From Hysterangium stoloniferum (taxonomy: Eukaryota; Basidiomycota; Agaricomycetes; Hysterangiales; Hysterangiaceae), in contig WHVD01000076.1 in NCBI GenBank assembly GCA_015178975.1, positions 1 through 64,000 on the forward strand: a stretch of 64,000 nt of DNA, in the 5' to 3' direction. The translations under genes were made by a program, and so were the position numbers. A model generated the notes under the pieces. That model was not told where the DNA came from, did no database searches, and saw only the letters and a program-made list of their open reading frames with translations. Positions 32,401 through 64,000 of the stretch are shown in pieces. Every line of letters begins with the position of its first letter. The stretch's first letter is position 1.

Positions 32401-33177
32401 GGGCCTATGTGGTGCAAGCCTGTCAGCTTTTTGCTTACTGAAAATGTCCGCGAAATCATGATATTTCTTGGGAACTCCTTCCAGATCGGCTTTTAGCTCG
32501 GATAATTCTGGAGTTGCAAAACGTCCAGATGCTTCATCAACTTTTAAGCTGATCGAAAAACATTGCGAGCCATCCAGTTTACTCGCCCTAAGAAATGCCG
32601 AAGCGTTGATGAGAGAGATTTTTGGGGGCTCGGAAGTTTCGATAGAAGCCGGAGATGCCGTTGATGCCGAAAAGGCGTTGGCCGGAAAAGACGCTGCAGG
32701 AGGAACGGAAGTGTCGGGAGTCCGGAAAGTAATACTGCCCAATACCCAGTCAATCAACGGATTATATCGGGTGAGCCAGTTGTATCCAAGAACTGCCGAA
32801 CAGCTAGAGTCCAACTGTGTTACGAAAAATGTAACCGTCTGGGGTGTTCCACAAGGGAACCGGATAGACATGTCGCAGGCTTGAGTAATTGCCGTATTGC
32901 TAGTGCCGTCAAACAAACGCAAGGAAATTGCGGGAACAGAATGGAGTTTCAGATTATGTTTCGTGGCAAAGGTGGTATCTACAAGACAGTGTGTGGAGCC
33001 GGAATCTATTAGAGCTCGGAACACTAAATTTCCAAGAAAGTCAGAGACGAGTTTTACAAATAATGAATCGGGATTAGAGAGAGCGGACGCGTTGAGACGG
33101 ACAACCTCGGAAACACGGAGAGAGTCAACGCAACCCTCTGTCTGTGCAGATTCCGGAGGGTTGCTTACTCTTTTTTT
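29484..33177 (-). CDS. pol: chromovirus pol with one frameshift before the chromodomain
   Basis: Polyprotein reached from gag by -1 frameshifting at 33171-33177, then open to ~29956. Order: aspartic protease (ALIDSGSTHCLVD, ~33015-32980), reverse transcriptase with YLDD at 31898-31909, RNase H (ETDASDYAIAAILS near 31470, LNYDVHDKELLAIFEAF near 31340), integrase zinc finger (HYGINNT...CTTCLRSK) and core (SDRGSKFVS, DGQTERVNQTL), then the C-terminal barrel (VGDQVFVKAQFFR) and a chromodomain (FEVSKILDSK ... LYLVKWAGY ... TSWI) ending at 29484. Near 30016-30018 one base is missing, moving the barrel and chromodomain (29484 to ~30015) into another frame; repairing nothing else would be needed for a full polyprotein, so this copy is defective but recently active. 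The chromodomain normally directs integration to marked histones. Confidence 0.93.
33130..33177 (-). promoter_or_regulatory. programmed -1 ribosomal frameshift signal joining gag and pol
   Basis: On the minus strand gag reads TCA AAA AAA GAG TAA. The heptamer A-AAA-AAA (33171-33177) is a canonical slippery site; the -1 frame is pol and is open from there. After a 6-base spacer holding the gag stop comes a perfect 9-bp hairpin, GCAACCCTC (33156-33164) pairing with GAGGGTTGC (33130-33138), loop 17 bases. Heptamer, spacer and stem match the classical retroviral layout. Confidence 0.85.
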
Positions 33178-34391
33178 GACTCCGTGGCGGGTTTTTCCTT
33201 AGACGTCGTAGTCGTAGTGGAAGTTGCCGCGCGAGCCTTGGAAGAGCTGGATTTAACGGTACAGTCGGAAACCTTGTGTCCGCCTTTCCCGCAGAAAAGG
33301 CAGAGGTCGTTGTCCATACGTCGTTGTTTCTCCTTCGGGGTGAGTTTACCGTCGGTACCCAACAAATGGGAAATGTCGGGTTTGTCGGAAGTTGACTGTT
33401 TTTCCTTGTTGGATTTCTTGTCTTTCTTCCGGTCGGAATTTGATTTGCCAGTATTAGTGCCAGAGCCGGTATTATTGCCTGAGTTGTTGCCGGAAGACTT
33501 GCTAGTTGATGCCTTGTTGTTCTGAGAACGTTCCGTCGGGTTCTCTCGAGAGACCTCGGCTTTTCGTTCCCAATAACGGGCATCGGATGTTTGAGCTTTC
33601 ATCTGCATGAGTTGGAGAGTTTTTGGCTTCCCATCTTTGCAGATTTCATCTTTAAGGCGTGACGGAAGTCCCATATAGAAATGGTGCCTGAGGGTGGAAT
33701 CGTCCCATCCACATCGTGCGGCGAGGGTATTGAACTTGACGAGATAATCGGAAACTCGTTGATTGTCCTTCATCTTGAGCATCATTAGTTCGTTTTCTGC
33801 TTCGCCGGATTGATCGTAAGGTCCGAAATTAGTTTCCAGTTCTTCCACGAAGGCATCCCAGTCGTCGAGCCATACGGGTGTCTCGTCGGATATTCCGGAT
33901 AGTCCGGGTTCGAACCAATCCTGAGCGGTATCCTTGAGATATGAGAGCGCAAAATTGACTTTTCGACTGTCGGATTTAAAAGTGTTGGGTCGATCACGGA
34001 AACTGAAACGGCATTGAAGAAGGAAATTCTTCAATTTTTTTGGATCCTTGCCGGTAAATGGTTCGGGTTCTTTGACTCCGGTGCGGGATGATTCTTTGCT
34101 ATCCTCAGCGGATTTCAAATAGTCAGCGAATTTCACAATGGAGTTGATAAACAACATTTCAGTCAGTTCGTCGGGAGATTTCTTTTTCGATGTCTCCGGC
34201 TGATCTTCTGCTTCGTTGTCGGAAGTATGGGGATCATTGGGATCCTTCGTTACCTCGGTAACCTCCTCGGTAACTTCTTCGATTGAAGCTGATGTTGTTG
34301 GCTGAATTGGGGTTTCGGGTTGGGTGGTGTAAAGTTGCAACGGGGATTGAAGTTGGGATGGTCCTTCGGCAGCTTTGCGTTTGGGACCCAT
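33165..34391 (-). CDS. gag: chromovirus gag
   Basis: Intact 408-residue capsid/nucleocapsid polyprotein from ATG 34391, which lies 35 bases inside the 5' LTR edge. Acidic N-terminus, a retrotransposon gag core (KNFLLQCRFSFRDRP ... ALSYLKDTAQDWFEP ... LETNFGPYD), then a Ser/Asn/Lys-rich linker and one CCHC zinc knuckle CLFCGKGGHKVSDC, with a short Ser/Thr tail and stop at 33165. No defects seen. It forms the virus-like particle and binds the element RNA. Confidence 0.95.
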   Translation of the reverse strand: MGPKRKAAEGPSQLQSPLQLYTTQPETPIQPTTSASIEEVTEEVTEVTKDPNDPHTSDNEAEDQPETSKKKSPDELTEMLFINSIVKFADYLKSAEDSKESSRTGVKEPEPFTGKDPKKLKNFLLQCRFSFRDRPNTFKSDSRKVNFALSYLKDTAQDWFEPGLSGISDETPVWLDDWDAFVEELETNFGPYDQSGEAENELMMLKMKDNQRVSDYLVKFNTLAARCGWDDSTLRHHFYMGLPSRLKDEICKDGKPKTLQLMQMKAQTSDARYWERKAEVSRENPTERSQNNKASTSKSSGNNSGNNTGSGTNTGKSNSDRKKDKKSNKEKQSTSDKPDISHLLGTDGKLTPKEKQRRMDNDLCLFCGKGGHKVSDCTVKSSSSKARAATSTTTTTSKEKPATESKKE

Positions 34392-44646: not shown

Positions 44647-44943
44647 TTAACACCTCCGTACTATAAGTATATTTAGTCCAAAGATGGAGGGCATGTCTCA
44701 TAAACATTGCAGACTGACTGTTTCCGGGGCAGCATGTTGGGCCATGACCACCATACTTGGGGTCTAATGGTGGAGTAGGGCAAGTTGGGACTAATGAAGT
44801 TTGTCCTGTTAGGAAGTGCATGTATGTCATCCAGAATGAATCTTACGGGCAGGGTTGCAACATGTCTGAGCAAGGGCAACATGAGGCATAAGGGCAAGAA
44901 AGGCGGTAAGACCAAAGACGGCAGAAAGACGAATGAATTGCAT
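44647..44943 (-). CDS. small secreted cysteine-rich peptide, copy A
   Basis: Exons 44943-44847, 44790-44719, 44660-44647; introns 56 and 58 nt, both phase 1. 60-residue preprotein: signal peptide (MQFIRLSAVFGLTAFLALMP..., cleavage expected after VALA) and a ~34-residue mature peptide with six Cys: CC-x6-C-x15-CC-x6-C. Core CPTPPL ... GHGPTCCPGN, ending RRC-stop. The last exon is only 14 nt and supplies the sixth Cys. Not a family I recognise; effector, antimicrobial or wall-associated roles are all possible. Copy A has one extra Gly compared with B. A TATA box lies ~95 bases upstream. Confidence 0.8.
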
Positions 44944-45035
44944 TTATGGTTAATTTATGAATAATTCGAATGTCTTTCTGTGTATAGGCGTCCGAGAGAC
45001 TGTTTGTTGATACTGTTGAATCTCATCGCCTTGCC

Positions 45036-45045
45036 TTTATATATA
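45036..45045 (-). promoter_or_regulatory. TATA box of SSP copy A
   Basis: TATATATAAA on the minus strand, ~95 bases upstream of the start codon, at the same relative position as in copies B, C, E and F. Confidence 0.6.
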
Positions 45046-45076
45046 CCAATCATAACGCACTTTTGAAGTAATAATA

Positions 45077-45159
45077 AGTCACTTTACCTGGCGAGATTTA
45101 TGCGCCCTCGCGGGTAAATCCCGTAAAACCGCATAAAACGCGGCGCCGCCCCAGTGACT
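45077..45159. mobile_element. short insertion with AGTCACT/AGTGACT ends
   Basis: 83 bases bounded by AGTCACT and AGTGACT. The paralogous place upstream of copy B (~46826) has a single AGTGACT and no insert, so ~76 bases were inserted. Non-coding, GC-rich, with internal pairing. Confidence 0.6.
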
Positions 45160-45227
45160 AGAGAGCTTCTTAAACGGAAACAGCATGTTGGCGGGAAACA
45201 GTTGGCCCTCCCGTTCGGGACTAAGAA

Positions 45228-45311
45228 AGTCACTATACCCCGGCGAGATTTATGCGCCTGGCGGGGTAAATCCTGTCAAACCGCGTAAATCGCGGCGCCC
45301 TTGAAAAGTGC
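45228..45311. mobile_element. second copy of the short insertion
   Basis: Starts AGTCACT and contains CGGCGAGATTTATGCGCC like the copy at 45077, with ~80% resemblance by eye. The right end is diverged. Confidence 0.5.
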
Positions 45312-45800
45312 GTTCTGGTTTGTATCCGATGCCAAAATACATCAGTTATATGTACAATCCGGGGTTACTTACTCAGTGTCCCACTATCAGGTGGCATGCA
45401 TGCTCAAGCTTACTATGATCTAATTGACGCTGTTCGGCCATTCCTCATTAATTGTATATCGTGTGACTGGTTTTTTTTCTTTTCCCAGACAGGATACATA
45501 AATACAAATCTCGCCAAGTGAGGCCCAATTTGGTTCAATTCTTCTGCATTATGGAAATTATGCATTATGAGCTGGCAGTGTGGCAGGCAGTGTAAGGCTG
45601 TCGGTATCAGCCTCACTCGGTCAACACGGACAGGACTAAGTTTTCTTTATTTTTACATATCAGTAGGATACAAGGTGAATGCGAGGTTCCCTGGGGAAGA
45701 GTGGGAAAAGGATTAATGGTCAAAGAGAAGATATCCTATCACTATAGGATATGGGGTTTTTTATATAGAGTCAAGGTGAATGGGGTGGAAGAACAAGGAA

Positions 45801-45957
45801 CCGCATGATCAGGCACAGGGGTGCTACTTAACAATAAAGTGGCGGATCAATGAGTGGCTGATGGGAGAGGTTGGTGATGATGACCGCATGATAAGGCACA
45901 AGGGTGCTACCAAGTGGCGGAACAATGAGTGGTTGATGGGAGAGGTTGGTGATGACG
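45801..45957 (+). repeat. two-unit tandem repeat
   Basis: Units 45801-45883 and 45884-45957 share CCGCATGATMAGGCACARGG and GATGGGAGAGGTTGGTGATG. The open frame through it (45780-46130) is a consequence of the repeat. Confidence 0.75.
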
Positions 45958-46397
45958 TATGTGGTAAGGTGGCCAGGCTTACAGGCAGGCACCCAAGTCA
46001 TTCTGACTCAACCCTATGCATTGTGAGCAAGTCAACTGTATACACCTATTTGTTTGGTTCTAAATTCATTTACAACAATATTGCCTTTAGACAACAGCAA
46101 GTCACTCGGTCTTGGAACACCGCTGGATAAAATTCAACAATTTTGACAACTTCCTACCAGCTATCGCTTACTAGTGCAACTTCTCATCTTTTCAATGCCA
46201 AGATTTAAAGAAAGGCCAGATGACTTATGGAGATCAAAAAGCGATCCCCACCATCTATCCGTTGCACGCACTCGATAAACATGTAGCGGAATTGTGCTAT
46301 CACGAATATAATACTGAATAACTAACTTCTTGGTACTTCTAGCGATCTCCCACGTTGAAACATCATAGATGTATTGTGGTAATTTCCCCACCACGAT

Positions 46398-46691
46398 TTA
46401 ACACCTCGGTTCTATAAGCATATTTAGTCCAAAGATGGAGGGCATGTCTCATAAACATTGCAGACTGACCGTATCCGGGGCAGCATGTTGGGCCATGACC
46501 ATACTTGCGGTTTAATGGCGGAGTAGGGCAAGTTGGGACTATTGAGGTTTGTTCTGTTAGGAAGTCCATGTATGTCATCCAGAATGAATCCTACGGGCAG
46601 GGTTGCAACATGTCTGAGCAAGGGCAACATGAGGCATAATGGCAAGAAAGGCGGCAAGACTAAAAACAGCAGAAAGACGAATGAAGTGCAT
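46398..46691 (-). CDS. small secreted cysteine-rich peptide, copy B
   Basis: Exons 46691-46595, 46538-46470, 46411-46398, same intron positions and lengths as copy A (56 and 58 nt). 59 residues: signal peptide MHFIRLSAVFSLAAFLAIM to VALA, then QTCCNPALPTCPTPPL, KYGHGPTCCPGYEPRC-stop, pattern CC-x6-C-x14-CC-x6-C. All six Cys and both splice-site pairs are intact. Closest to copy A; differs from C-F in Thr before the second CC pair. Function unknown. Confidence 0.8.
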
Positions 46692-46786
46692 TTATGGTTA
46701 ATTTATGAATAATTCGAATGTCTTTCTGTGTATAGGTGCCGCCTGGGAGACCGTTTACCGATACTATTGAATCTCATCACCTTGCC

Positions 46787-46794
46787 TTTATATA
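46787..46794 (-). promoter_or_regulatory. TATA box of SSP copy B
   Basis: TATATAAA on the minus strand, ~97 bases before the start codon. Confidence 0.6.
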
Positions 46795-46861
46795 CCAATA
46801 ATAACGCATTTTTGAAGTAATAGTAAGTGACTAGAGAGCTTCTTAAACGGAAACAGCCTGG

Positions 46862-47330
46862 GGTCGGCCTGAGAGGGAAACGGCTGACCCTCCCTTCGGC
46901 ACTAAGAATGAAAGATGTAGAGCATATTAGCTCTTGCACTACTAGCTCTCCGACGGGAATTTGGAATCATCGATCCCGCCGAGAGGTCGGCCTGAGTGGG
47001 AAACGGCCGACCCTCCTGCTTGGCACTAAGAATGAAACATGTTAGCTCCCGCATTACTAACTCTCCTATAGAATCACCAATCCGGCCGGTCGGCCTGAAC
47101 GGGAAATGGCCGACCCTCCCGCTCGGCACTAAGAATGAAACAAAGAGGTATATTAGCTCCCGTACTACTAGCTCTCCGACGGTAATTTTGGAATGGCCAA
47201 TCCGGCTGGGGGGTTGGCCTAAGCGGGAAACGGCCGACCCCTCCTGCTCGGCACTAAGAAGGAAACATGTAAGGCATATTAGCTCCCAGACTACTAGCTC
47301 TTCGACGGCAATTTGGACCAATCTGTCCCT
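46862..47330. repeat. four ~105-125 bp tandem units with strong hairpins
   Basis: Units begin at ~46862, 46985, 47088 and 47212. Each has GGTCGGCC...GGCCGACC (inverted) overlapping GAGCGGG...CCCGCTC (inverted), then CTAAGAATGAAAC and TTAGCTCCCGCACTACTAGC. Single diverged units sit upstream of copies C, D, E and F, so this is an amplified piece of the cluster's own upstream sequence. Long frames across it on both strands are repeat artefacts. Confidence 0.85.
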
Positions 47331-47884
47331 TATTTCAGCAGTCTCAGGAGTATACACAACGTTGTTCCCTATGACTCTACACTAGGCCCCTGCTGATTGC
47401 CCAAATTTCATCATGGCATCAAGTATGCTGGATAAACGTCAGATTATATGGACACTCGCAATCCTAGAATCACGGATATAATGAGGAAGGGCCGAACAGC
47501 GTCAATTATATCGTATTAAGCTTGAGCATGCATGCCACCTTCGGGCATGGCATATTGGGACACACTGAGTAAGTAACCCCGGATTGTATATGTAACTAAT
47601 ATATTTTGTATCCGCATCGGATACAAAGCAGAATGCACTTTTCAAGCAAAGAATGACAAAGAGCCACCTTGAAACTCCTATCATAACATCACTGTGAAAG
47701 CTGGAAAGGTCACTAATTGTAAGATAAATGACCAATTAGAGCCTGGAATTATGAAGCTGAACACCCCATGTAGAGAAATCCGAGTGATCTAGAGATGGTC
47801 CACAGTCTCAGCAAGTCTCTAGAGTGCTCCAACATACATATATGATATAAATATATTAAATAGAAGAAGCAGTATCAAGTTTTA

Positions 47885-48084
47885 GGTGTGACTGCAGGCT
47901 CTACTGTGCTGATTGACGATTGGTGGACGGGGATAACAAGCACCATGGAGATGTTGAACTGTCGGGATTTATTGGTATATGTTGCACGTCGTTGAGGACG
48001 CTCACGGTCTTGCTGTGCTCTGCTTTGGGTTACTGTATTATCGAATGGATATTCGATTTGCTTGATGGAGAATCCGCTAGGTAG
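47885..48084 (+). pseudogene. frameshifted copy of the small hydrophobic ORF
   Basis: Corresponds to 52445-52642 but lacks one A at ~47957 (TTGAACTG versus TTGAAACTG), which breaks the frame. Confidence 0.4.
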
Positions 48085-49330
48085 TACTTTACAGTAATCG
48101 GTTGTATTTGACAAGGAAACTTTATCACCCCCTTCACCGGCATGAAAACCTGCCGTATATTTTCAACAGAAACTACAGATCAAATTGTGCATGTTAGACT
48201 GCGAAAGTTCTTCCACCCCATGAAATGGCATTGTAAATAAAACTGGGCACCGGCTCGACTTGTAGAACCTGGTGATGCTAACCTGGCAATGGATGCAAAC
48301 GTCAATTGAGGGAATGAACCATATGGCCTGCAAATATTACCTTTGTCTTGAAGGCCAAAGATAAAAAGAATTAACTCCCATAGGTGCCTTTTTAATGCAC
48401 TCAGGTGTAAATCCCTGCTGCTTTGGGAATATATCTACAAGTATTCTCTGGTGGGAGCATGAGGACCAGTTTGATATATTGAAGCCTAGCCTGACGAAAA
48501 CCAGGTATCATCAAGAAGCTATATTTGCAATTTAAAAGAATAGAAAGGCACCAGTGAGTTCTTTTTTACGATAACGTTTCCGCCTAAAAAATCAATAAAC
48601 GATGGTCGGTGCCCCCCAAGTTTCTACCACACCTGCTTAATCTCACCATTGAATCTCTTTCCTCCCACTTCCAGATCTTTGGGTCAACAATAAATAAATA
48701 CTCCCAGCTTTATTACGTTGAACTCATACACTCCTATCCCTGTCTCAGATTTTTCTTCGCATTGCTTGTTGCTTCAGTTACTAGGGAGAGGACGTGTAAC
48801 ACTGGCACCCGATTGCATGGGCTAATATTTAGGTTCCTACTAGTAAGGGAGCGCTATTTGAATTTGCGGCACTGTACGCCAATTTTGACAACTCGGGGCT
48901 CGTGCTAGGCTACATAACGAGTACAATCACACCTCGTGTAAGCCTGGTGGCTTATGACATACCGATTACGTTATCACAGACGCGCATAGTACATTTTTAA
49001 ATAATCGTTTCACTTACCGTCATCATCGTGTATCGTACTCGCCGTTCTCGACAGTTTGGTCCTGTCAATGTCTGGACTGATGCCAATGAAGGCTGCATTA
49101 GACAGCAGCCTTTCACCTCGCTCAATACCGAGATTCAAAAAACGGGTCAGGAGACATTATTGAGAACAAAGAGCTGTCCCCGCCATCCATCCAGTGCAAG
49201 TACTCCATAAACATATAATAGAATTGTGCTATCCAAATTACAATACTGAATAAGTAAATTCCCGGTACTTCTCGCCGCCCCGTACGCTGAGTCGTCGTAG
49301 ATATATATGCGGTAATTTCCCTGTCACGAT

Positions 49331-49624
49331 TTAACACCTCGGCGCTGTAGGAACATTCAGTCAGGAAATGAGGGCTGTGTCTCATGAATTGTGCAGACTG
49401 ACCGTTTCCGGGGCAGCATTCTGGGCCATGACCAAACTTGGGATTCAAGGGTGGCGTAGGGCAGGCTGGGACTGGCGAGGTTTTTTCTGTTAGAAAGTGT
49501 ATGCATGTCATCCGGAATGAAACCTACGAGCAGAGTTGCAGCATGTCTGCGCCACGGTAACATGCGGCATAATGGAAAGAAGGGCTGCAAGACCGAAAAT
49601 GGCAGAAAGACGAGTGAATTGCAT
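49331..49624 (-). CDS. small secreted cysteine-rich peptide, copy C
   Basis: Exons 49624-49528, 49471-49403, 49344-49331; introns 56 and 58 nt. 59 residues: signal peptide MQFTRLSAIFGLAALLSIM to VTVA, then QTCCNSALPACPTPPL, KFGHGPECCPGNAPRC-stop, pattern CC-x6-C-x14-CC-x6-C. TATA box at 49722-49715. An in-frame extension upstream exists, but the conserved ATG is used in all copies and lies just after AATTAACCACA. Intact; function unknown. Confidence 0.8.
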
Positions 49625-49714
49625 TGTGGTTAATTTATGAATAGTTCGAATGTCTTTGTGTGTGGAGGTGTCTGAAAGACTGTTTGTCGATACTATTGAA
49701 TCCCATCGTCTACC

Positions 49715-49722
49715 TTTATATA
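49715..49722 (-). promoter_or_regulatory. TATA box of SSP copy C
   Basis: TATATAAA on the minus strand, ~91 bases before the start codon. Confidence 0.6.
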
Positions 49723-49999
49723 CCAATGATAATGCATTTCTGAATTATTATCAAGTGATGACAATTCGGAGATAGATTTACAAACGGGAACAGCCATCTT
49801 GGCTGGGGTCCCTACACACAAGTGGAAAGTGGCCGATATTTCCGCTGGGGACTAAGAATAAAACATACAGACTATCTCAGTTACCATACTACTAGTTCTC
49901 CGACACTAATTCTGAATCACCAATCCGTGATCGGCGGGGCTACTGTGACCGCCGGTATTTCAACCAGTTCAGGAGTATATGCAACGCCGTCCCCCCTAT

Positions 50000-50248
50000 A
50001 TTAAAGAGAGTATGAGCTGGCTTATCGTAATACACAATCTAGAAGGGTTTAATAGACTTCTAATAGAAGTACTTGTATGTGAATCACCTTCTGACAAGAT
50101 ACGTTTGGTGCTAGTTTAGGTGTACACCGGTTCTGTCATGGATTAGCCTCAGAATGCATGGTCCACAATTAGCATTTTCATATGAACAGTTGAAGAAATG
50201 GGTGAACCGCCCCTAGGAAAAAGGCTGTTTTCATCACCAATTCCAACA
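50000..50248 (+). mobile_element. family N element, 5'-truncated copy with target duplication
   Basis: Matches the end of the element at 8712-9785 (reverse complement), up to the terminal CCAATTCCAACA. It is flanked by CCCTAT on both sides (49994-49999 and 50249-50254), and the paralogous site in unit 3 (~57462) is empty. Confidence 0.75.
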
Positions 50249-51016
50249 CCCTATGACTCTACACTAGACCCGGGGGCACCCTGATTGCGCAAATTTCATC
50301 ATGACGGATACACGGGTGGCTGCATCAAGTATGCCGGATAAGCGTCATATGATAGGAACGTAAACATCGCAAGGAGTCACGGGTATAATGAGGAATGGCC
50401 AAACAGCATAGATTAAATAATATCCAGCGTGAGCATGCATGCCACATTCGGGCACTGACAAGTGACACCGGGTTGTTTGAATAACTGGTGTATTTTGTCC
50501 CGCATCAGATACACGCCAGTGACGCGCTCAAACGGTCCGCCAGCAATGATCGCCACGTATTTTTGGGTAATTGTTTTGCAATTTTTGCTTCTCTTTTGAC
50601 TGCCGATTCAAATTCCATACATATCAACTATATCTCTTATAAGCAAGAGTAGATTCGCTGGCACTGATCCGGGAGCATCAACAAGTCATATATTGGGCGA
50701 GGCTGTACCCGGTCTGTCTCTTTGAGTAAAGGACGCTCTGAAGTAGGATATTTTTGATTGATGCCAGATGGTCGCATTAATGGAACGGGGACATAGGAGG
50801 CCGGTCCTCAGACATTTTCCTTAAACATATCGCTCGAGACAAAAATATATTAGGGGAAAATCTCCTAGATCTATCTAAGTCGAGCTATTACATTATATAA
50901 GAGCAATCAATATACATAGGTGCTTTCAAGGAAGCCGTTTGTAATAGATGAGACGCTCTCATACCGGACGGTTGAAAGGAACGGCAGAGTTAAAACCTTT
51001 AGTTCTGGTGCTAATG

Positions 51017-51273
51017 TCAATTCAACTTACATGCTCCTGGACAGCATTCTGGCCCTAGTCCGAATCTCAGCGACGGAGTCGGACAAACGGGAACTGTAGA
51101 CGCGCATGAAAAATGAGTGGATATATTGGGCAAGTTTAATTCAAAGGCGTCTGACGGTTAGCATTATAGCAAGGGGTTGGCGTCGGAGTGGCGCTGTACT
51201 GTGCAAGGGTGGTTTGTGAGACGGGTGAGATGATAGCCGCAAGGAGGAATGCAGACAGACGGGCGGATTGCAT
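51017..51273 (-). pseudogene. small secreted cysteine-rich peptide, copy H1 (decayed)
   Basis: Exons 51273-51156 and from 51093. Signal peptide MQSARLSAFLLAAIISPVSQ and a Pro/Thr-rich stretch match copy H2. Damage: the first CC pair is now CY, the acceptor of the last intron has become AA, and the terminal RC codons are lost (at ~50973-50980). Reading through the last donor gives ...CCPGACKLN-stop at 51017, where a substitution happens to create a new Cys. Upstream in-frame ATG at 51321 is not conserved in H2. Confidence 0.65.
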
Positions 51274-52444
51274 CGTGCGTGAGAGCTGGTTGTGCGGGCT
51301 TGAGGCATCTTGCGAAGCCATGTCAACTTACGATATCTGGTTTAAGTTATGAATAAATCCATAGGAAAAAGCTATGGCAATTAAAAAAGGGGAAGGAGGG
51401 ACAACGACAGCTTCAACAGATATCGAAAGGGGTGAGCAATCCCAGATATCGCTATTGGTTTTCGTCTATTCTGTGTTCAGTAGGCGACCACACCCTGTGG
51501 CGGAAGTCACGTCGAGTGCTGTAAGCGGAATAACTAAATAAATACATCAGTGCCGCGATGCATGTTGATCTAGTTGATCGCTGTGGCGTGCGCGCCGGGG
51601 AAGCTAGGAAGCCGTCTCCATCGAGAACAATTTAGGTGCGTTCACAGCTCTGTAGATTGAAAGATTGATTTGATGGTTGTTTCCGGGTGGCTAATGATTC
51701 TCACCAGAATGCAGGGGCTGTCCGACAAAAAGGTTTATTGAACTTATGAACTGTTGATCAGATATGGCAGGTTTTCGTGCGGAGGGAGCCACAAAGTCCC
51801 TTATAGATTATAACTAATTACTGCTACCTAATACGCTGTTTACAATGCAAATACTCAGGAACAAAAAAACATAGCCGCATCAACCGTTTCAAGAGTATAT
51901 ACAACGTTGTCCGCCTTATGACTCTACACTAGGCCCTTGCTAATTGCGCAAATTTTATCATGGCATCAGGTATGCTGGATAAACGTCAGATTATATGAAT
52001 AGGAGCATAGACACTCGCAATCCTGGAATCATGGGTATAATGAGGAATGGCCGAACAGCGTCAATTAGATCATATTAAGCTTGAATATGCATGCCACCTT
52101 CGGGCATGGCATAGTGGGACACGCTGAGTAAGTAACCCCGGATTGTATATGTAACCAATATATTTTGTATCCGCATCGGATACAAACCAGAACGCACTTT
52201 CCAAACAAAGAATGACAAAGAGCCACCTTGAAATTCCCAGCATAATATCACTGTGAAAGCTGGAAAGGTCACTAATTGTAAGATAAATGACCAATTAGTG
52301 CCTGGAATTATGAAGCTGAACACCCCATGTAGAGGAATCCGAGTGATCTAGAGATGGTCCAGTCTCAGCAAGTCTCTAGAGTGCTCCGACATACATATAT
52401 GATATAGATATATTAAATCGAGGAAGCAGTATCAAGTTTTAGGT

Positions 52445-52642
52445 GTGACTGCAGGCTCTACCGTGCTGATTGACGATTGGTGGACGGGGATAACAAGCAC
52501 CATGGAGATGTTGAAACTGTCGGGATTTATTGGTATATGTTGCACGCCGTTAAGGACGCTCACTGTCTTACTGTGCTCTGTTTTGGGTTACTATATTATC
52601 AAATGGATGTTCGATTTGCTTGATGGAGAATCCGCTAGGTAG
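52445..52642 (+). CDS. small hydrophobic ORF conserved between duplication units
   Basis: A 65-codon frame (first ATG at 52502, 46 residues from there) with WWTGITS, hydrophobic LSGFIGICC and LLCSVLGYYIIKWMF segments and end DGESAR. The same peptide is encoded at 55723-55920 and, frameshifted, at 47885-48084. It could be the last exon of a small membrane protein (an acceptor-like CAG lies at 52453), but no first exon was found. Conservation may simply reflect recent duplication. Confidence 0.3.
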   Translation: MTAGSTVLIDDWWTGITSTMEMLKLSGFIGICCTPLRTLTVLLCSVLGYYIIKWMFDLLDGESAR

Positions 52643-53293
52643 TACTTTACAGTAATCGACAAGGGGGACTTTCTCACCCCCTTCACCGGCATGAAAACCT
52701 GCCGTACATTTTCAACAGAAACTACAGATCAAATTGTGCATGTTAGACTGCGAAAGTTCTTCCACCCCATAAAATGGCATTGTAAATAAAACTGGGCACC
52801 GGCTCGACTTGCAGTACCTGGGTGATGCTCACCTGGCAATGGATGCAATTGTCAATTAACCTTATGCCCTGGGGATCACCTTTGTCTTGAAGGCCAAAGA
52901 TAAAAAGAATCAACTCTCACAGGTGCCTTTTTAATGCAATCAGGTGTAAATCCCTACTGCTTTGGAAATATATCTGCAAGTATTCTCTGGTGGGAGGGTG
53001 AGGACCACTTTGATATATTGAGGCTTAGCCTGACGAAAACCAGGTATCATCAAGAGGCTCTATTTTCAATTTAAAGGAACAGAAAGGCACTAGTGAGTTC
53101 TTTTTTACGATAACGTTTCCGCCTAAAAAATCAATAAACGATGGTCGTCGGTACCCCCCAAGTTTCTAACACACCCGCTGAATCTCACCAGTGAATCTCT
53201 TTCCTTCCACTTCCAGATCTTTGTGTCAAAAATAAATAAATACTCCCAGTTTTATTACGTTGGACTCATACACTCCTAGGGCCTCGTGCTAGG

Positions 53294-53602
53294 CTACATA
53301 ACGATTTTACACCTCCGCGCTGTAGGAACATTCAGTCAGGAAATGAGGGCTGTGTCTCATAAATGGTGCGGACTGACCGTTTCCGGGGCAGCATTCTGGG
53401 CCATGCCCAAACTTGGGAATCAAGGGTGGCGTAGGGCAAGCTGGGACTGACGAGGTTTTTTCTGTTAGGCAGTGTATGCAGGTCATCCAGAGTGAAACCT
53501 ACGAGTAGGGTTGCAACACGGTGTCTGAGCCAGGGCAACATGAGGCATAATGGAAAGAAGGGCTGCAAGACCGAAAACGGCAGAAAGACGAGCGAATTGC
53601 AT
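53294..53602 (-). CDS. small secreted cysteine-rich peptide, copy D (extended C-terminus)
   Basis: Exons 53602-53503, 53446-53378, 53319-53294; introns 56 and 58 nt. 64 residues. Signal peptide MQFARLSAVFGLAALLSIM to VALA; an inserted Pro before the first CC (QTPCCNPT); core CPTPPLIPKFGHGPECCPGN. The usual stop after RRC has changed to AAA, so translation continues KIVM before TAG, next to the breakpoint of the inverted duplication. Same changes as in copy E, so D and E are recent duplicates. The TATA box is altered (CATATAAAG). Confidence 0.7.
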
Positions 53603-54285
53603 TATGGTTAATTTATGAATAGTTCGAATGGCTTTGTGTGTATAGGTGTCTGAGAGACTTTGTCGATGCTATTGAATCCCATCATCTCTTTATATGCCAA
53701 TGATAATACATTTTTGAATTATATCAAGTGATTACAATTCAGAGACAGCGTTACGAACGGGAACAGCCAACTTGGCTGGAGGTCTCTAAACCCAAGCGGA
53801 AAATGGCCGATGTTTCCGCTGGGGACTAAGAATAAAACATAAAACATACAGAGTATTTCAGTTACCGTACTACTAGCTCTCCGACCATTCCTCATTATAC
53901 CCATGACTCCTTGCGATGTTTATGTTCCTATCATATGACGTTTATCCGGCATATTTGATGCAGCCAGCCGCGTCTCCGCCATGATGAAATTTGCGCAATA
54001 AGGCCCCCGGGTCTAGTGCAAAGTCATAGGGGGGGCAGCGTTGCATATACTCCTGACCTGGTCACAGTAGTCCAGCCGATCACGGATCGGTGGTTCCGAA
54101 TTAGCCTCGGGGAGCTAGTAGTACGGTAACTGAGATACTCTGTATGTTTTATGTTTTATTCTTAGTCCCCAGCGGAAATATCGGCCATTTTCCGCTTGGG
54201 TTTAGAGACCTCCAGCCAAGATGGCTGTTCCTGTTTGTAACACTGTCTCCGAATTGTAAATAATTCAAAAATGTATTATTATTAG

Positions 54286-54293
54286 TATATAAA
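54286..54293 (+). promoter_or_regulatory. TATA box of SSP copy E
   Basis: TATATAAA, 88-95 bases before the start codon at 54381. Confidence 0.6.
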
Positions 54294-54380
54294 GGTAGAC
54301 GATGGGATTCAATAGCTCGACAAAGTCTCTCAGACACCTATACACACAAAGACATTCGAACTATTCATAAATTAACCACA

Positions 54381-54713
54381 ATGCAATTCGCTCGTCTTTC
54401 TGCCGTTTTCGGTCTTGCAGCCCTTCTTTCCATTATGCCTCATGTTGCCCTGGCTCAGACACCGTGTTGCAACCCTACTCGTAGGTTTCACTCTGGATGA
54501 CCTGCATACACTGCCTAACAGAAAAAACCTCGTCAGTCCCAGCTTGCCCTACGCCACCCTTGATTCCCAAGTTTGGGCATGGCCCAGAATGCTGCCCCGG
54601 AAACGGTCAGTCCGCACCATTTATGAGACACAGCCCTCATTTCCTGACTGAATGTTCCTACAGCGCGGAGGTGTAAAATCGCGACGGGGAAATTACCGCA
54701 TATATATCTATGA
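54381..54713 (+). CDS. small secreted cysteine-rich peptide, copy E (inverted, extended)
   Basis: The only copy on the plus strand. Exons 54381-54480, 54537-54605, 54664-54713; introns 56 and 58 nt. 72 residues. Exons 1-2 are identical to copy D. After ...CCPGNARRC the lost stop gives a 13-residue basic tail (KIATGKLPHIYL) to TGA 54711. It has a good TATA box, unlike D. Six Cys retained. Confidence 0.72.
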
Positions 54714-55203
54714 CGATCCAGCGTACGAGACGGCGAGAAGCACCGGGAATTTGCTTATTCAGTATTGTAATTTGGATAGCACAATTCCATTATATGTTTA
54801 TTGAGTACTTGCACCGGATGGATGGCGGGGGCGGCTCTTTGTTTTCAATAAGTCGTCTGATCTGTCTATTGAATCTCGGTATTGAGCGAGGTGTGATTGG
54901 ACTCGTTATGTAGCCTAGCACGAGCCCCGAGTTGTCAAAATTGGCATGCAGTGTGGCTGCAATGCAAGTAGAGGTCCTTGCTAGTGGGAACCTAAATAGA
55001 TTGCGCAAATTTTATCATGGCATCAAGTATGCTGGATAAACGTCAGATTATATGAATTAGGAGCATAGACCTCGCAATCCTGGAATCATGGGTATAATGA
55101 GGAATGGCCGAACAGCGTCAATTAGATCATATTAAGCTTGAGTATGCATGCCACCTTCGGGCATGGCATAGTGGGACACGCTGAGTAAGTAACCCCGGAT
55201 TGT

Positions 55204-55419
55204 TGTAATCCCGTCGTCAATTGGGATCACTGGCGGTCACACAAGTTGACAGGACCACGGTGTATTGTCCAGAGCAGAACAAGATACAGGCAAGTGCAGC
55301 GTACGGTAAGATCTAAGGTCCTGAAAACTTCCCGGCTACTTATACCGTGCAACATGGTGATTATGTAATCACGTAAAACTAAAGGGTCCGTGCGTAAGAC
55401 TGGGGGCACCAGGATTACA
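55204..55419. mobile_element. 216-bp insertion with TGTAATCC/GGATTACA ends and 5-bp duplication
   Basis: Ends TGTAATCC and GGATTACA are inverted; ATTGT flanks both sides (55199-55203, 55420-55424). The paralogous sites in units 1 and 2 are empty. TG...CA ends plus a 5-bp duplication and an internal CTTATACC suggest a small solo LTR; a MITE is the alternative. Confidence 0.8.
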
Positions 55420-55722
55420 ATTGTACCTGTAACTAATATATTTTGTATCCGCATCGGATACAAACTAGAACGCACTTTTCAAACAAAGAATGACAAAGAG
55501 CCACCTTGAAATTCCCAGCATAATATCACTGTGAAAGCTGGAAAGGTCACTAATTGTAAGATAAATGACCAATTAGTGCCTGGAATTATGAAGCTGAACA
55601 CCCCATGTAGAGGAATCCGAGTGATCTAGAGATGGTCCAGTCTCAGCAAGTCTCTAGAGTGCTCCGACATATATATATGATATAGATATATTAAATCGAG
55701 GAAGCAGTATCAAGTTTTAGGT

Positions 55723-55920
55723 GTGACTGCAGGCTCTACCGTGCTGATTGACGATTGGTGGACGGGGATAACAAGCACCATGGAGATGTTGAAACTGTCG
55801 GGATTTATTGGTATATGTTGCACGCCGTTGAGGACGCTCACGGTCTTACTGTGCTCTGTTTTGGGTTACTATATTATCAAATGGATGTTCGATTTGCTTG
55901 ATGGAGAATCCGCTAGGTAG
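55723..55920 (+). CDS. second open copy of the small hydrophobic ORF
   Basis: Encodes the same 65 residues as 52445-52642 (ATG at 55780), with only synonymous or no changes visible. See that entry for description. Confidence 0.3.
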   Translation: MTAGSTVLIDDWWTGITSTMEMLKLSGFIGICCTPLRTLTVLLCSVLGYYIIKWMFDLLDGESAR

Positions 55921-56806
55921 TACTTTACAGTAATCGGTTGTATTTGACAAGGGGACTTTCTCACCCCCTTCACCGGCATGAAAACCTGCCGTACATTTTC
56001 AACAGAAACTACAGATCAAATTGTGCATGTTAGACTGCGAAAGTTCTTCCGCCCCATAAAATAGCATTGTAAATAAAACTGGGCATCGGATCGACTTGCA
56101 GTACCTGGGTGATGCTCACCTGGCAATGGATGCAAATGTCAATTAACCTTATGCCCTGGGGATCATTTTTGTCTTGAAGGCCAAAGATAAAAAGAATCAA
56201 CTCTCACAGGTGCCTTTTTAATGCAATCAGGTGTAAATCCCTACTGCTTTGGAAATATATCTGCAAGTATTCTCTGGTGGGAAGGTGAGGACCACTTTGA
56301 TATATTGAGGCTTAGCCTGACGAAAACCAGGTATCATCAAGAGGCTCTATTTTCAATTTAAAGGAACAGAAAGGCACCAGTGAGTTCTTTTTTAGGATAA
56401 CGTTTCCGCCTAAAAAATCAATAACCGATGGTCGGTGCCCCCCAAGTTTCTAGCACACCTGCTGAATCTCACCAGTGAATCTCTTTCCTTCCGATCTTTG
56501 TGTCAAAAATAAATGAATACTCCCAGTTTTATTACATTGGACTCATACACTCCTAGGGCCTCGTGCTAGGCTACATAACGAGTCCAATCACACCTCCCTC
56601 AATACCGAGATTTAATAGACAGATCAGACGACTTATTGAAAACAAAGAGCCGCCCCCGCCATCCATCCGGTGCAAGTACTCAATAAACATATAATGGAAT
56701 TGTGCTATCCAAATTACAATACTGAATAAGTAAATTCCCGGTACTTCTCGCCGTCTCGTGCGGTGAATCGTCGTAGATATATATGCGGTAATGTCCCCAT
56801 CGCGAT

Positions 56807-57101
56807 TTAACACCTCGGCACTGTAGGAACATTCAGTCAAGAAATGAGGGCTGTGTCCTCATAAATGGTGCGGACTGACCGTTTCCGGGGCAGCATTCTG
56901 GGCCAGGACCAAATTTGGGATTCAAGGGTGGCGTAGGGCAAGCTGGGACTGACAAGGTTTTTCCTGTTAGAAAGTGTATGCACGTCATGCAGAGTGAAAC
57001 CTACGACCAGCCTCGCAGCATGTCTGAGCCAGGGTAACATGCGGCATAATGGAAAGAAGGGCTGCAAGACCGAAAACGGCAGAAAGACGAGCGAATTGCA
57101 T
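56807..57101 (-). CDS. small secreted cysteine-rich peptide, copy F
   Basis: Exons 57101-57005, 56948-56880, 56820-56807; introns 56 and 59 nt. 59 residues: signal peptide MQFARLSAVFGLAALLSIM to VTLA, then QTCCEAGLPACPTPPL, KFGPGPECCPGNVPRC-stop; pattern CC-x6-C-x14-CC-x6-C. The mature part shows amino-acid changes around fixed cysteines (NSA to EAG, H to P). TATA box at 57197-57190. Intact. Confidence 0.8.
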
Positions 57102-57189
57102 TGTGGTTAATTTATGAATAGTTCGAATGGCTTTGTGTGTATAGGTGTCTGAGAGACTTTGTCGATGCTATTGAATCCCATCATCTACC

Positions 57190-57197
57190 TTTATATA
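57190..57197 (-). promoter_or_regulatory. TATA box of SSP copy F
   Basis: TATATAAA on the minus strand, ~90 bases before the start codon. Confidence 0.6.
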
Positions 57198-58157
57198 CCA
57201 ATGATAATACATTTTTGAATTATATCAAGTAATTACAATTCAGAGACAGCGTTACGAACGGGAACAGCCAACTTGGCTGGAGGTCTCTAAACCCAAGCGG
57301 AAAATGGCCGATGTTTCCGCTGGGGACTAAGAATAAAACATAAAACATACAGAGTATCTCAGTTACCGTACTACTAGCTCTCCGAGGCTAATTCGGAACC
57401 ACCAATCCGTGATCGGCTGGACTACTGTGACCAGGTCAGGAGTATATGCAACGCCGCCCCCCCTATGACTCTGCACTAGACCCGGGGGCACCCTGATCGC
57501 GCAGATTTCATCATGGCGGAGACGCGGGTGGTTGCATCAAGTATGCCGGATAAATGTCATATGATAGGAACATAAACATCGCAAGGAGTCACGGGTATAA
57601 TGAGGAATGGCCAAACAGCATAAATTAAATAATATTCAACGTGAGAATGCATGCCACATTCGGGCGTGGTACGCTGGGACACACTGAAAAGTAACTCCGG
57701 CTTGTATGAAATAACTGATGTAATTTGTCCCCGCATCAGATACACGCCAGCGACGCGCTCAAACGGCCCGCCCGCAATGATCGTCACGTATTTTTGGGTA
57801 ATTGTTTTGCAATTTTTGTTTCTTTTTTGACTGCTGATTCACATTCCGTACATATCAACTATGTCTTTTATGGACAAGAGTAGGGGAGCAGTTCGGGCAC
57901 AGTATGACAACCGTGAGCATCAACAGGCCATATATTGGGCGTGGCTGTACCTGGTCTCTCTCTTTGGGGTAGGTGGTCGCATTAATAGAACGGAGACATA
58001 GGGAGGCCGGTCCTCGGACATTTTCCATAAATCGGTCGAGACAAAAATATATTAGGGGAAAATCTCCTCGATCTATCTAGGTCGAGCCAATACATGATAT
58101 AAGAGCAATATAGGTTCTTTTCAAAGGAAACCGTTTGTAATTGACGAGATGCTCTGA

Positions 58158-58470
58158 TTAGCATCGGACGGCTGAAAGGAACGGCAGAATTAAAACCTTT
58201 AGTTCTGGTGCTAATGTCAATTCAACTTACCGGCTCCTGGACAGCATTCCGGCCCTAGTCCGAATCTCAGCGGCGGAGTCGGGCAAACGGGAACTGTAGA
58301 CGCGCATGAAAAATGAGTGGATATATGGGGCAAGTTTCATGCAAAGACGTCTTACGGTTAGCATTACAGCAAGGGGTAGGCGTAGGAGTGCTGTACTGTG
58401 CAAGGGTGGTTTGTGGGACGAGAGCGAGGATAGCCGCAAGGAGGAATGCAGATAGACGGGCGGATTGCAT
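58158..58470 (-). CDS. small secreted cysteine-rich peptide, copy H2 (divergent branch)
   Basis: Exons 58470-58356, 58293-58231, 58171-58158; introns 62 and 59 nt, phase 1 as in copies A-F. 63 residues: signal peptide MQSARLSAFLLAAILALVPQ to TLA, a Thr-Pro linker (QYSTPTPTP), then CCNANLPVCPTPPL, RFGLGPECCPGAAVRC-stop; pattern CC-x6-C-x12-CC-x6-C. The terminal 14-nt exon again encodes the last Cys. Sequence outside the core is unlike A-F, so the shared cysteine frame and gene structure define a wider family. TATATA lies near 58533-58541. Confidence 0.8.
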
Positions 58471-59140
58471 CGTGTGTGAGAGCTACTGGTTGTGCAGGCT
58501 TGAGACATCCTGCGAAGCCATTTCAACTTACAATATATAGTCTCTGATTTTCTTCAAGGTATGAATACGTCCGTGAGAAAAAGCAATGGCAATTACAAAA
58601 GGGGAAGGAGGGACAACGATAGTTTCGATATCCCAGACGTCGCTATTGGTTTTCGTCTATTCCGTGGTCAGTAGGCGAGCACACCATGTCAACTCGAGTG
58701 CTGTAAGCGGAATAATAAAACAAATACATCAGTGCCGCGATGCATGTTGACCTAGTGGATCGTTTGGGCGCGGGCGCCGGGGAAGGAAGCTGTCTCCATC
58801 GAGAACAATTTAGGCTCACACAGGTGAGTAATGAGAATTGAGGCCGTGCTTGGGCGTAAGACTCGGTCGTGTACCTGGAGGGTAAATAAGCGTTTGTGCG
58901 TTTACAGCTCTGTAGATTGAAGAATACTGTTGATTAATTTGATGATTGTTGTCGGGTGGCTAATAGTTCTCGCTAGAATGCAGAATAGGTCTATTGAACT
59001 TATGAACTGTTGAAAACACACGGCAAGTTTTCGTGCGGGCGAAAAGAGCCACAAAGTCCCTTGTATATTAGAACTGACTGCTGCTACCTAATACGCTGTT
59101 TAAAATGCAAATACTCAGGAACAAAACAACATAGCCGCAT

Positions 59141-60730: not shown

Positions 60731-63700
60731 TCACATTCCTCCCATCCCCCTCCTCGCTCTCGGTCCCAAAGGCGGGGGTCTCGATGAAAACCCGCCATGG
60801 CTCTGATGATTCGTACCCTGCCTCTGACTCTGACCGGATCCGGATCCAGAGTTAACACCCCCGCCCCGCCCATGTCTAACATCCGCACTCGGCTGTAAAT
60901 TCCCTGCTGGTGGCAGAGCATGGCGATATGGCGGCGAGGAGCGGTACGGGGGTGACGCACGGTGATAATGCGATCGCGGCTGCGTGGGGGGAGAGCGTGC
61001 ATATGGAGGACCGGAACCGGAACCGATGCCGCCGGGACGGCTTGCCTGAGCATGGGCATGGGGAGGGAGCGGCGCAGATGGCGAAACGGGGCGGGATGTC
61101 GGTGAAGGTGACGCGGGGCGCAATGAAGAGGACGATGGGTGCGGAGAGAAAGAGCGTTGTTGAGGGGGGGAGAACCCTCGCGATTGGGGAGGCGAGAACC
61201 CTCGGCCTTGGGAGCGGAAGGGAATGCCACCTCGATTGTGTGGTGCCGGTGGTGGGGAGAATTGGCCAAAGCGGTTGAAGAGTTGGGCGCGCGGTGCAGG
61301 GGGTGGTGCTGCTGCCAGTGGTTGCGGCGGTTGGGGAGGCGATCCGTTTATTTCGCCTTCTTCAAAGGAGGAACGGCCACGGCGGGCAGGGGAATGAGGT
61401 GTTAAGGACACAAGCGGAGGAGAACAGGGTGTAGGCGAGGTGGTGAAAGCTCCAGACGGGGACGCACTCGACGGGGGCGGAACATGCATATGTGAATCTG
61501 GCGGATGTTGCACAGGATCGGAAGACGACTCGGACGATCTGATCGCCGCATTTCCCTCGCGCGAAGAGGTCCTCTCACAGGCATTCCAACTAGGCGGGGG
61601 GGTCCTCCTTTCCAAAGACCGCGACGAGACATGCAGTGGAGAAGTAAACGGAACGGGTCCGTCCACGCTCAGACCAAATTTGAAAGGCTGCTCCATCGAC
61701 GCGACAGGCTGTTCGGGATGCGGGATGGTAGTCTCTTCGGGACGTAGAGTACTGGTCAGCTCAGGCGGAGTATGCGTTGCAACAGACGGCTCAGTAGACG
61801 GTTCAGCCATTACTGGGCACGGTGACGTGGGCTGCCCGCTATCATTCAACCGCTGAATACCCGCTTTCAGGATATCCATCTCCTTCAAATCCACATCGAT
61901 GTCCATGAATGGTAGATCGACAGGAGGCGGTGGTGGAAGCGGTATAGTGGCGGCGGCCGCCTCTGCCGTCTTCACCTCATCATCTTTCTTCACTCCATCT
62001 TTGGCAACATCGGCCCCAGGCCCAGGCCCAGCCCCAACTTCATTCTCCTTCTCCTTATCACTCCGCTCCCTCTCCTCCCTCTCCTTTCGTTCCCTCTCCC
62101 TCCGAATTTTCCAGTCCGAGAGTGAGAGGCGTGGAGGTGCTTGTACGGGAGGAGGCGGAGGCGGCGCGGGTGGAGATGGCTCACGAGTTGGTGAAACTGG
62201 GGTAAGTGTGGTGCTTGGCCTAAGTGTGGGGGCTGATGTAAGCGTAAGGGGCCGAGCGTCAGGGTTAGCAAGCGGGTGTGTAGATGCCGGCGTTGCCGAA
62301 GGCGTGGGATGCATCGAGGTCGACTCAGGGACGTCCGGCGCAATTAACTTTTTCATATCCCTATCCCTATCCGCATCCTCTGGCGAACCCGCTTTCAGTC
62401 TTGATGCAATATGCACATCAGGACCAACCGCCACACCAGCATCCATCTCCTTACTGCTCTCCCCACAAACAGGAACATCCGGCACCGGCATATCCTCGGA
62501 AGATGACGGTTCACGCCACGTATCATCCGCAGACGGCGGCAACAATGGCATATTGTTCAGTGTGGAGGATGTCGATGTTGGTGTTGAGAGGGTGGTTACT
62601 TTAACAGGGGAAGGTGAGGATACAGTTATGATGACTGCGGATGCATTGGGTTTAGGTGTGGGGAGGATAGGCTCGAACGGGTGAGAGTCATGGTCGTCAT
62701 CAGATGTCCCGCGTAAGGACAACCCAGCCATCGCTGTACTGGGTGACAACAACGCTAAACGCACGGGAGGAAGAAAACACATTAATACGCAAAATGGGGA
62801 AGGTAAGATAAAGCAACTACTAACCAGTCTCATCCCTGTTCATTTTCACGTCTAGTCCCAATGCCAGGCCCATATCAGTCTTGCCCTTGCCCGTCGTCCC
62901 GTCTATCCCATCATCCATCTCAACATCCACATCGCCATCTCCTACGCCTCCCTCATCCCCGCCGTCGCGGCTATCCGCAGGAGTACCAGGCGAGGCTCCA
63001 CCGCCATCCAACTCCTTAGCAGTTCGTCCGGTCCATTTCTTCCGCATCTTCGGTGGGAGGGCATTTTCACCTGGCATGGATGGGAGTTTGGATTTATTTG
63101 CCGCGGGAGAAGGTGCAGAAGCGGGAGCAGGAGCAGGACTACCAGAAAGAGGCGCAGAAGACGTCGTCGCATCCTTCACCCTCGCCTTCGCCTCCTCGGC
63201 ATTACCACTGTTCTTATTCGTTGCATCCGTCACCCGCGTCTTCCCCTTCTTCCTCCCCACCACCCCACCCCCACTCCAGCTCTCCCATTCATTACCAACC
63301 CTGGATTTCTTCCTCACAGGTCCTCCAACGCCATTAACGTCAGCCTCGCGTTTTCTACCTGCTGTCACTGGCTCAACGACAGGTTTCTTGTCAACGTCTT
63401 GGTCTCGGTCCATATCCTGGGCAGGATCCAGACCATGATCATCACCATCGCCGCGTAAACTAGACACATTCGGCTGCACAGGGGACATGACGTAGGTTTG
63501 ACCATCGCTGTCCTCCTGGTGCTGGTGTTGATGCTGGTGCGGGAGACAGGAGTTTGCCGTTAATCGTTCTTGTGCTTGTGCTTGTGCTTGAAGCGCACAG
63601 TGTGATAATGAGCCGCCACAGGCGCAGGTTGTGAATGACGCAAGGAGAGCGGCAACGACTGGTGACACCGCGACGAATGTACTACTGTAGAAGAGAGTAT

Positions 63701-64000
63701 CAGGGATTGGAAACAATAGAAATAAAAATAAAACAATGCGAGAGACGTACCCATGCATATCCCCAACATCTCTTGAGCTCCCCGTCTTTTCACCACTCTC
63801 ATCATCATCATCACCACCACGCCACTCCCACCCTAATACGACCTCCTCTCCCTTCTTCATGTCCCTCAACGCAAATATACCTAGCGAGATGCCGGACGTG
63901 TTTTCGGCGTTCGGCGTTGAGTAGAACTTGGTATGTTGATGATGGTGGTGGGCCGCATTGGACGCGCGGGCGTGGATGTCGTGCGACTGGAAACCTGGCA
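60731..64000 (-). CDS. Set3-like SET-domain protein, 5' part outside window
   Basis: C-terminal part of a large chromatin protein resembling fungal Set3 (PHD + SET) of histone deacetylase complexes. Visible exons: beyond 64000 to 63752, 63684-62825, 62754-60731 (introns 67 and 70 nt, phases agree). The first visible exon has a His-rich stretch and the end of the SET domain (SLGIFALRDMKKGEEVVLGWEW). Exon 2 continues VAALLASFTTCACGGSLSHC, a cysteine-containing segment following SET, then basic low-complexity sequence. Exon 3 is ~670 residues of Pro/Ser-rich disordered tail with a charged helix SLSDWKIRRERERKERE, a FEEGEI motif and repeats of RGFSPPQ/RSFSP. Set3-type SET domains are usually not active methyltransferases. 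PHD finger and start lie to the right of the window. Confidence 0.82.

Follow-up and report, generated by a model that had tools for sequence, protein, structure and literature searches.

Small secreted cysteine-rich proteins that lack relatives are plentiful in the genomes of fungi, and which of them come from real genes is rarely obvious. This question arises in a 64,000-nucleotide stretch of DNA from the basidiomycete Hysterangium stoloniferum (contig WHVD01000076.1, positions 1 to 64,000), which we call the window. Between 44.6 and 58.5 kb it holds eight related units: seven open copies of a short spliced gene (A to F and H2) and one decayed copy (H1). A first-pass annotation, made from the letters alone, described these units as a family of secreted peptides with six cysteines, two introns at fixed places and a history of birth and death. 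Are they genes at all? If so, what do they encode, and do they belong to a family already described?

Here we report a follow-up of that description. On the evidence of the sequence, the cluster is a conserved small gene family, and it was correctly described. We read it as a set of tandem genes, each encoding a signal-peptide-like start followed by a short six-cysteine peptide built of two CC-x6-C modules, and we give this reading a probability of about 0.6; our best single guess at the job of the peptide, less probable when taken by itself, is antagonism or defence. Selection on the older copies argues that the frames are real, and the two introns, which split the two modules at the same place, point to a possible origin of the layout.

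Results

Gene structure of the copies

Coordinates are given from the start codon to the end of the stop, in the reading direction. Copy A (44943-44647, minus strand) consists of exon 1 at 44847-44943, an intron at 44791-44846, exon 2 at 44719-44790, a second intron at 44661-44718 and exon 3 at 44647-44660, and it encodes a precursor of 60 residues. Copies B (46691-46398; exons 46595-46691, 46470-46538 and 46398-46411), C (49624-49331; exons 49528-49624, 49403-49471 and 49331-49344) and F (57101-56807; exons 57005-57101, 56880-56948 and 56807-56820) lie on the same strand and encode 59 residues each. D (53602-53294, minus strand; exons 53503-53602, 53378-53446 and 53294-53319; 64 residues) has lost the usual stop, as has its inverted twin E (54381-54713, plus strand; exons 54381-54480, 54537-54605 and 54664-54713; 72 residues). 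The most diverged open copy is H2 (58470-58158, minus strand; exons 58356-58470, 58231-58293 and 58158-58171; 63 residues), of which H1 (51017-51273, minus strand) is a decayed relative.

When frames and splice sites were re-read in all copies, the eight locations given in the first-pass annotation proved exact. Both introns of the open copies are phase 1 with GT..AG borders. Exon 1 measures 97-115 nucleotides (nt) and exon 2 63-72 nt, and exon 3 is short; intron 1 is 56 nt long in A-F and 62 nt in H2, and intron 2 is 58-59 nt long. Seven of the eight copies splice in this way to intact frames of 59-72 residues, with the common signal-peptide-like start and the six cysteines that had been claimed for them. 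A TATA motif stands at -69 to -103 nt from the ATG in all seven. H1 was rightly called decayed: the second codon of its first cysteine pair reads Tyr (Cys-Tyr in place of CC), intron 2 lacks its acceptor AG, and no TATA motif was found in the 130 nt 5' of its start.

By eye, intron 1 of copies A-F contains a second acceptor, AACAG, in frame and 15 nt upstream of the one we prefer. If used, it would turn the first module into CC-x11-C. We favor the downstream site because H2 uses the homologous site and because a branch-site-like sequence, CTAAC, lies right at the upstream AG; this CTAAC has the look of a branch site serving the downstream acceptor.

A six-cysteine peptide of two modules

The precursors open with a hydrophobic start of 24-25 residues, in which 11-residue Kyte-Doolittle maxima reach 2.3-3.1 in all seven open copies. 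A putative cleavage context (Ala-x-Ala in A, B, D and E; Thr-x-Ala in C, F and H2) precedes a Gln, the predicted first residue of the mature part. The conserved portion of the mature part spans 34, 35 or 39 residues (the whole is longer by 4 in D and by 12 in E), with a calculated mass of 3.5-4.0 kDa and isoelectric point (pI) of 6.1-8.4. Six distinct copies (A, B, C, D, F and H2) were scored, and all of them keep the cysteine spacing CC-x6-C-x(12, 14 or 15)-CC-x6-C exactly; E was omitted as a duplicate of D, from which it does not differ in the shared spliced frame or in either intron. Thirty-two alignment columns are invariant among the six distinct precursors, all six cysteines included. 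The copies share the core CPTPPL...GxGPxCCPG, and a Pro/Gly-rich linker joins the two CC-x6-C modules.

A feature that the earlier description did not contain is the relation between modules and introns. Each intron splits its own module at the same place, in the fourth codon after CC and in phase 1, in 6/6 distinct copies; counted toward the C-terminus, this is the third codon before the cysteine of each module. The phase 1-1 exon between equally split modules suggests that an ancestral module was duplicated together with its intron, the event of which such an exon is the expected trace. The two modules show no likeness beyond chance (3-5 of 18 non-cysteine bases are alike, a level reached by 0.52-0.95 of 5,000 shuffles), and a comparison of intron 1 with intron 2 stays within 1.9 standard deviations of the shuffled values in 7/7 copies. 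Because the halves retain no sequence likeness, the argument for internal duplication is one of spacing and intron place. If the second intron is taken to fall uniformly over about 105 coding bases, we estimate the chance of the coincidence at near 1 in 100, a figure of our own for a pattern noticed post hoc.

Selection on the coding frames

How can such short frames be told from chance? Paralogues that differ in age offer a test of codon structure. Compared with A, B, C, D and F, H2 differs at codon positions 1/2/3 by 16/13/38, 15/13/38, 14/9/39, 12/9/40 and 12/10/37, respectively (of 56-57 codons), an excess at the third position in all five comparisons. A formal permutation was run on the H2/D pair; its third-position count was reached in 0 of 100,000 permutations, both over the 57 codons and in the mature part alone (5/6/24 of 33). 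The same five comparisons give nonsynonymous divergence (dN) of 0.19-0.28 with saturated synonymous divergence (dS), and dN/dS is 0.28-0.47 when A or B is set against C, D or F (six comparisons). Because dN is low where dS is saturated and dN/dS is 0.28-0.47 between the A/B and C/D/F groups, these alignments indicate that the older family is under purifying selection. The lengths of exons 1 and 2 differ between copies by multiples of three only. This adds little as evidence of coding, because only a few such events are seen and intron 1, too, varies by 6.

Comparison with known families

A Pfam scan of precursors A, B, D and H2 and of mature A gave no significant match; the sole row was DUF5464 (E 0.14), over residues 4-30 of D, which are mostly signal peptide. 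Comparison with the PDB returned nothing for mature A; for mature H2 the rows were all at chance level (E 0.85 and above). Viral and prokaryote contig collections contained no relative, as expected of non-fungal collections. Among the copies scanned, then, the absence of a significant Pfam or PDB match bears out the earlier view that the family is tied to no known one.

The closest class is that of the fungal small secreted cysteine-rich proteins. The likeness lies in the signal-peptide-like start, the short mature part, the even number of cysteines, the tandem copies and the lack of a Pfam domain. Several defining features of the class are found here: a predicted N-terminal signal peptide (by hydropathy only), short length, richness in cysteine and no known domain. 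The family differs in its six-cysteine mature part of 34-39 residues and in the two introns placed alike in two modules. Judged by these features, it is a member of this large class, with an unusual two-module layout.

Other peptide classes fit less well. KEX2-processed precursors of the dikaritin type carry repeated core peptides between dibasic sites. By inspection, each precursor here holds one core only, and dibasic pairs occur singly, close to the C-terminus in A, D and E and within the linker in B. The cysteine order of cystine-knot peptides (knottins) is likewise not that of this family: PMC5522442 gives the plant orders as C-C-CC-C-C or C-C-C-C-C-C, and the order here is CC-C-CC-C. The plant beta-ginkgotides share with our peptides six cysteines and two adjacent pairs; they differ by having the order C-CC-C-CC (C-x2-CC-x6-C-x2-CC) in 18-20 residues, half the length (PMC5522442). 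That paper in fact gives two orders for beta-ginkgotides, CC-C-CC-C in the introduction and C-CC-C-CC in the abstract, figure legend, conclusion and sequence; the former looks like a slip.

Conotoxin six-cysteine frameworks are also short, disulfide-dense secreted peptides with adjacent cysteine pairs, a likeness from which we claim no relation by sequence. CC-C-CC-C alone is absent from the framework table of PMC11677113 and from the visible part of the table in PMC6471681. In the literature passages retrieved by a search for this order, it was mostly part of longer cysteine patterns, with the introduction of PMC5522442 as the sole exception. A search by peptide words retrieved no fungal paper among those it listed; ECCPG occurs in the long, many-cysteine con-ikot-ikot toxin of Conus distans venom. 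The appearance of the order in the introduction of PMC5522442 speaks against saying outright that it has never been published.

Comparison with hydrophobins

The first-pass annotation had set the family apart from hydrophobins on the number of cysteines. Hydrophobins are defined, in PMC3879219, by eight cysteines in a conserved pattern. Like the peptides described here they are fungal and secreted and consist of two CC-x-C halves; our peptides have six cysteines rather than eight, lack a PF01185 match and differ in the place and phase of their introns. The PF01185 profile does find hydrophobins in the same genome, with 18 matches (exon pieces, not a gene count). Two of these loci, L055 and L061, were read in detail. 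Each has eight cysteines by eye, an intron in phase 0 between the second CC and the last cysteine, four codons before the latter, and no intron between the first CC and the next cysteine. Cysteine number, profile scan and intron place relative to L055 and L061 together lead us to reject descent from hydrophobins, and the earlier statement is upheld. The profile matches include G000:C529:327906-328163 and places on other contigs, and one of the 18 lies on the cluster's own contig. Their presence also points to a fungal source of the DNA.

Spread of the cluster

The cluster is pieced together from duplicated blocks; A and B lie in two paired units with a spacing of 1.75 kb. D and E occupy the arms of a 365-nt inverted repeat (left arm 53302-53666, holding D; right arm 54317-54681, holding E), which are 99% complementary with 650 nt between them. 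The unit at 50249-51330 (plus strand), which carries H1, has a twin at about 57461-58530 (84%) that carries H2. A spacer unit at 51980-53230 (plus strand) recurs at 47433-48687 (91%) and 55420-56507 (96%).

Copies A and H2 were used as queries against the organism's own 111-Mb assembly. All 11 matches to A (E up to 0.001) and all 11 to H2 (E up to 10) fall in the cluster; the search scored the best candidates only, and not by profile, and could miss strongly diverged relatives. The DNA pattern for GPxxCCPG was found at 17 places in the genome (backward control, 1), 8 in the cluster and 9 outside. The latter comprise two sets, each of four loci that resemble one another, and one lone locus, and by eye none has surroundings resembling the family.

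The arrangement of the blocks shows that the family has spread by local segmental duplication and inversion. The birth-and-death evolution proposed earlier is supported by recent copies (D and E, identical over the gene), an old split (H2 versus A-F, dS saturated) and the decayed H1.

Two further features belong to the repeats themselves. The match to the 51980-53230 unit ends at 55203 and resumes at 55420, and the intervening 216 nt or so (55204-55419) look like an insertion in that spacer copy. A short tandem array at 46980-47320 has units of about 103-126 nt with near-palindromic GGTCGGCC...GGCCGACC stretches; the region 46820-47360 has 5 genome matches, all within the cluster.

Other features of the window

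The duplicated spacers carry, three times, a dispersed element of about 200-220 bp (about 52518-52720 in the window, with matching places near 47.96-48.18 and 55.80-56.01 kb). Thirty-five of its 41 listed matches come from other contigs and are 70-85% identical; the true number may be higher, since 40 of 104 candidates were scored. In 20 fetched copies, TGTTGGGATTTATTGG is exact in 8 and TTTTCAACA in 9, the others being close variants. The element is probably similar to a miniature inverted-repeat transposable element. A mini open reading frame, MEMLKLSGFIGICC..., which occurs in the spacers at about 47.95, 52.5 and 55.8 kb, was considered as a second small gene. We rejected it because it lies inside the dispersed element and the other-contig matches aligned (20/35) show frame-breaking indels.

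Elsewhere in the window, a Ty3/gypsy-type retrotransposon with Pfam matches to gag, reverse transcriptase, RNase H and integrase lies at 29956-34391 (minus strand), and Pfam marks a second reverse-transcriptase frame at 2977-4671. Two long frames at 60731-63998 (minus strand) have no Pfam match and are low-complexity and Pro/Ser-rich by eye; the open end may be part of a SET-type domain.

Discussion

Secreted peptides that have no known relatives are frequent in fungi, and the best reading of these genes is that they encode small, cysteine-rich, secreted peptides specific to a lineage, on the strength of searches of the organism's own genome and of non-fungal collections. From the anatomy of the precursors, a pathway can be proposed. 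Cleavage would occur after Ala/Thr-x-Ala, leaving an N-terminal Gln that may cyclise; three disulfides would form in the secretory pathway, and the peptide would be released outside the cell, its core kept while its loops vary between copies. What might such a peptide do? Our best single guess, and a tentative one, is a secreted peptide of antagonism or defence against other organisms, because copies that turn over locally and combine a constant Pro/Gly/Cys core with variable loops would suit a peptide that encounters them.

Two rival explanations would deny that the family is what it appears to be. Since the copies sit in segmental duplications containing a dispersed repeat, they might be chance frames in a non-coding repeat that merely resemble spliced genes. 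For the family as a whole this is refuted by the third-position excess in five of five H2 comparisons and by the low dN with saturated dS, and we consider it very improbable; it applies, if anywhere, to individual recent copies (D or E, for instance), which could be dead. The peptides might instead be degenerate or shortened relatives of hydrophobins that lost the first cysteine of each half and now coat surfaces. The order CC-C-CC-C is indeed what remains of C-CC-C-C-CC-C after such a loss, and PMC3879219 describes clusters of hydrophobin genes in the genomes of two basidiomycetes, one of which also has probable pseudogenes. Yet the copies scanned have no significant Pfam match while the profile matches 18 places elsewhere in the genome, and the last intron of L055 and L061 lies in phase 0 four codons before the last cysteine, against phase 1 in the third codon before it here. 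This origin is highly unlikely, though slightly less so than chance frames.

The remaining rivals concern function. The more plausible is an effector of symbiosis or infection that acts on a host cell; small size, a signal peptide, many cysteines and a single locus with local duplication and loop variation would all suit it, but the dN/dS that separates the A/B clade from the C/D/F clade is below 0.5, not the excess that an arms race would leave, and we hold this role to be unlikely. A surface or matrix peptide is less probable again. More doubtful still is a developmental or mating signal of the fungus itself. The shortness of the peptide, its signal-peptide-like start and the TATA promoters of its genes would fit such a signal; by inspection, however, no CaaX-like lipidation motif was found (Cys is the last residue of A, B, C, F and H2), nor were repeated dibasic processing sites found in the precursors, and it is unusual for a signal of this kind to be encoded in several closely related copies.

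Several observations weigh against tandem genes for a secreted peptide of antagonism or defence. The usual stop after the last cysteine is absent from D and E, which adds 4 and 12 C-terminal residues, respectively. Within clades, on few changes, dN/dS is 1.08 for A/B, 1.00 for C/F, 0.84 for D/F and 0.51 for C/D, and the youngest copies may be relaxed, diversifying or too young to tell. The signal peptide was judged by simple hydropathy rather than by a trained predictor, and the calculated pI is unlike the profile of strongly cationic antimicrobial peptides.

Could the two-module layout be a scaffold in its own right? We put forward, as a speculative and rather improbable extension, that one CC-x6-C module was duplicated with its phase-1 intron to yield a minimal disulfide scaffold of a new kind, in which a peptide of ~34 residues has two-fold pseudo-symmetry and is kept while its loops diversify in a fast-turning cluster. 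If the symmetry is structural, the simplest pairing would be I-IV, bridging the modules, with II-III and V-VI within them, each closing a six-residue loop.

Whatever their function, paralogues of different ages in one cluster provide direct evidence of coding constraint and make this family a good choice for synthesis and for mapping of its disulfides. If the reading by module duplication is true, the family would present a very short disulfide scaffold that arose by duplication of a half-module, with the introns as its trace.

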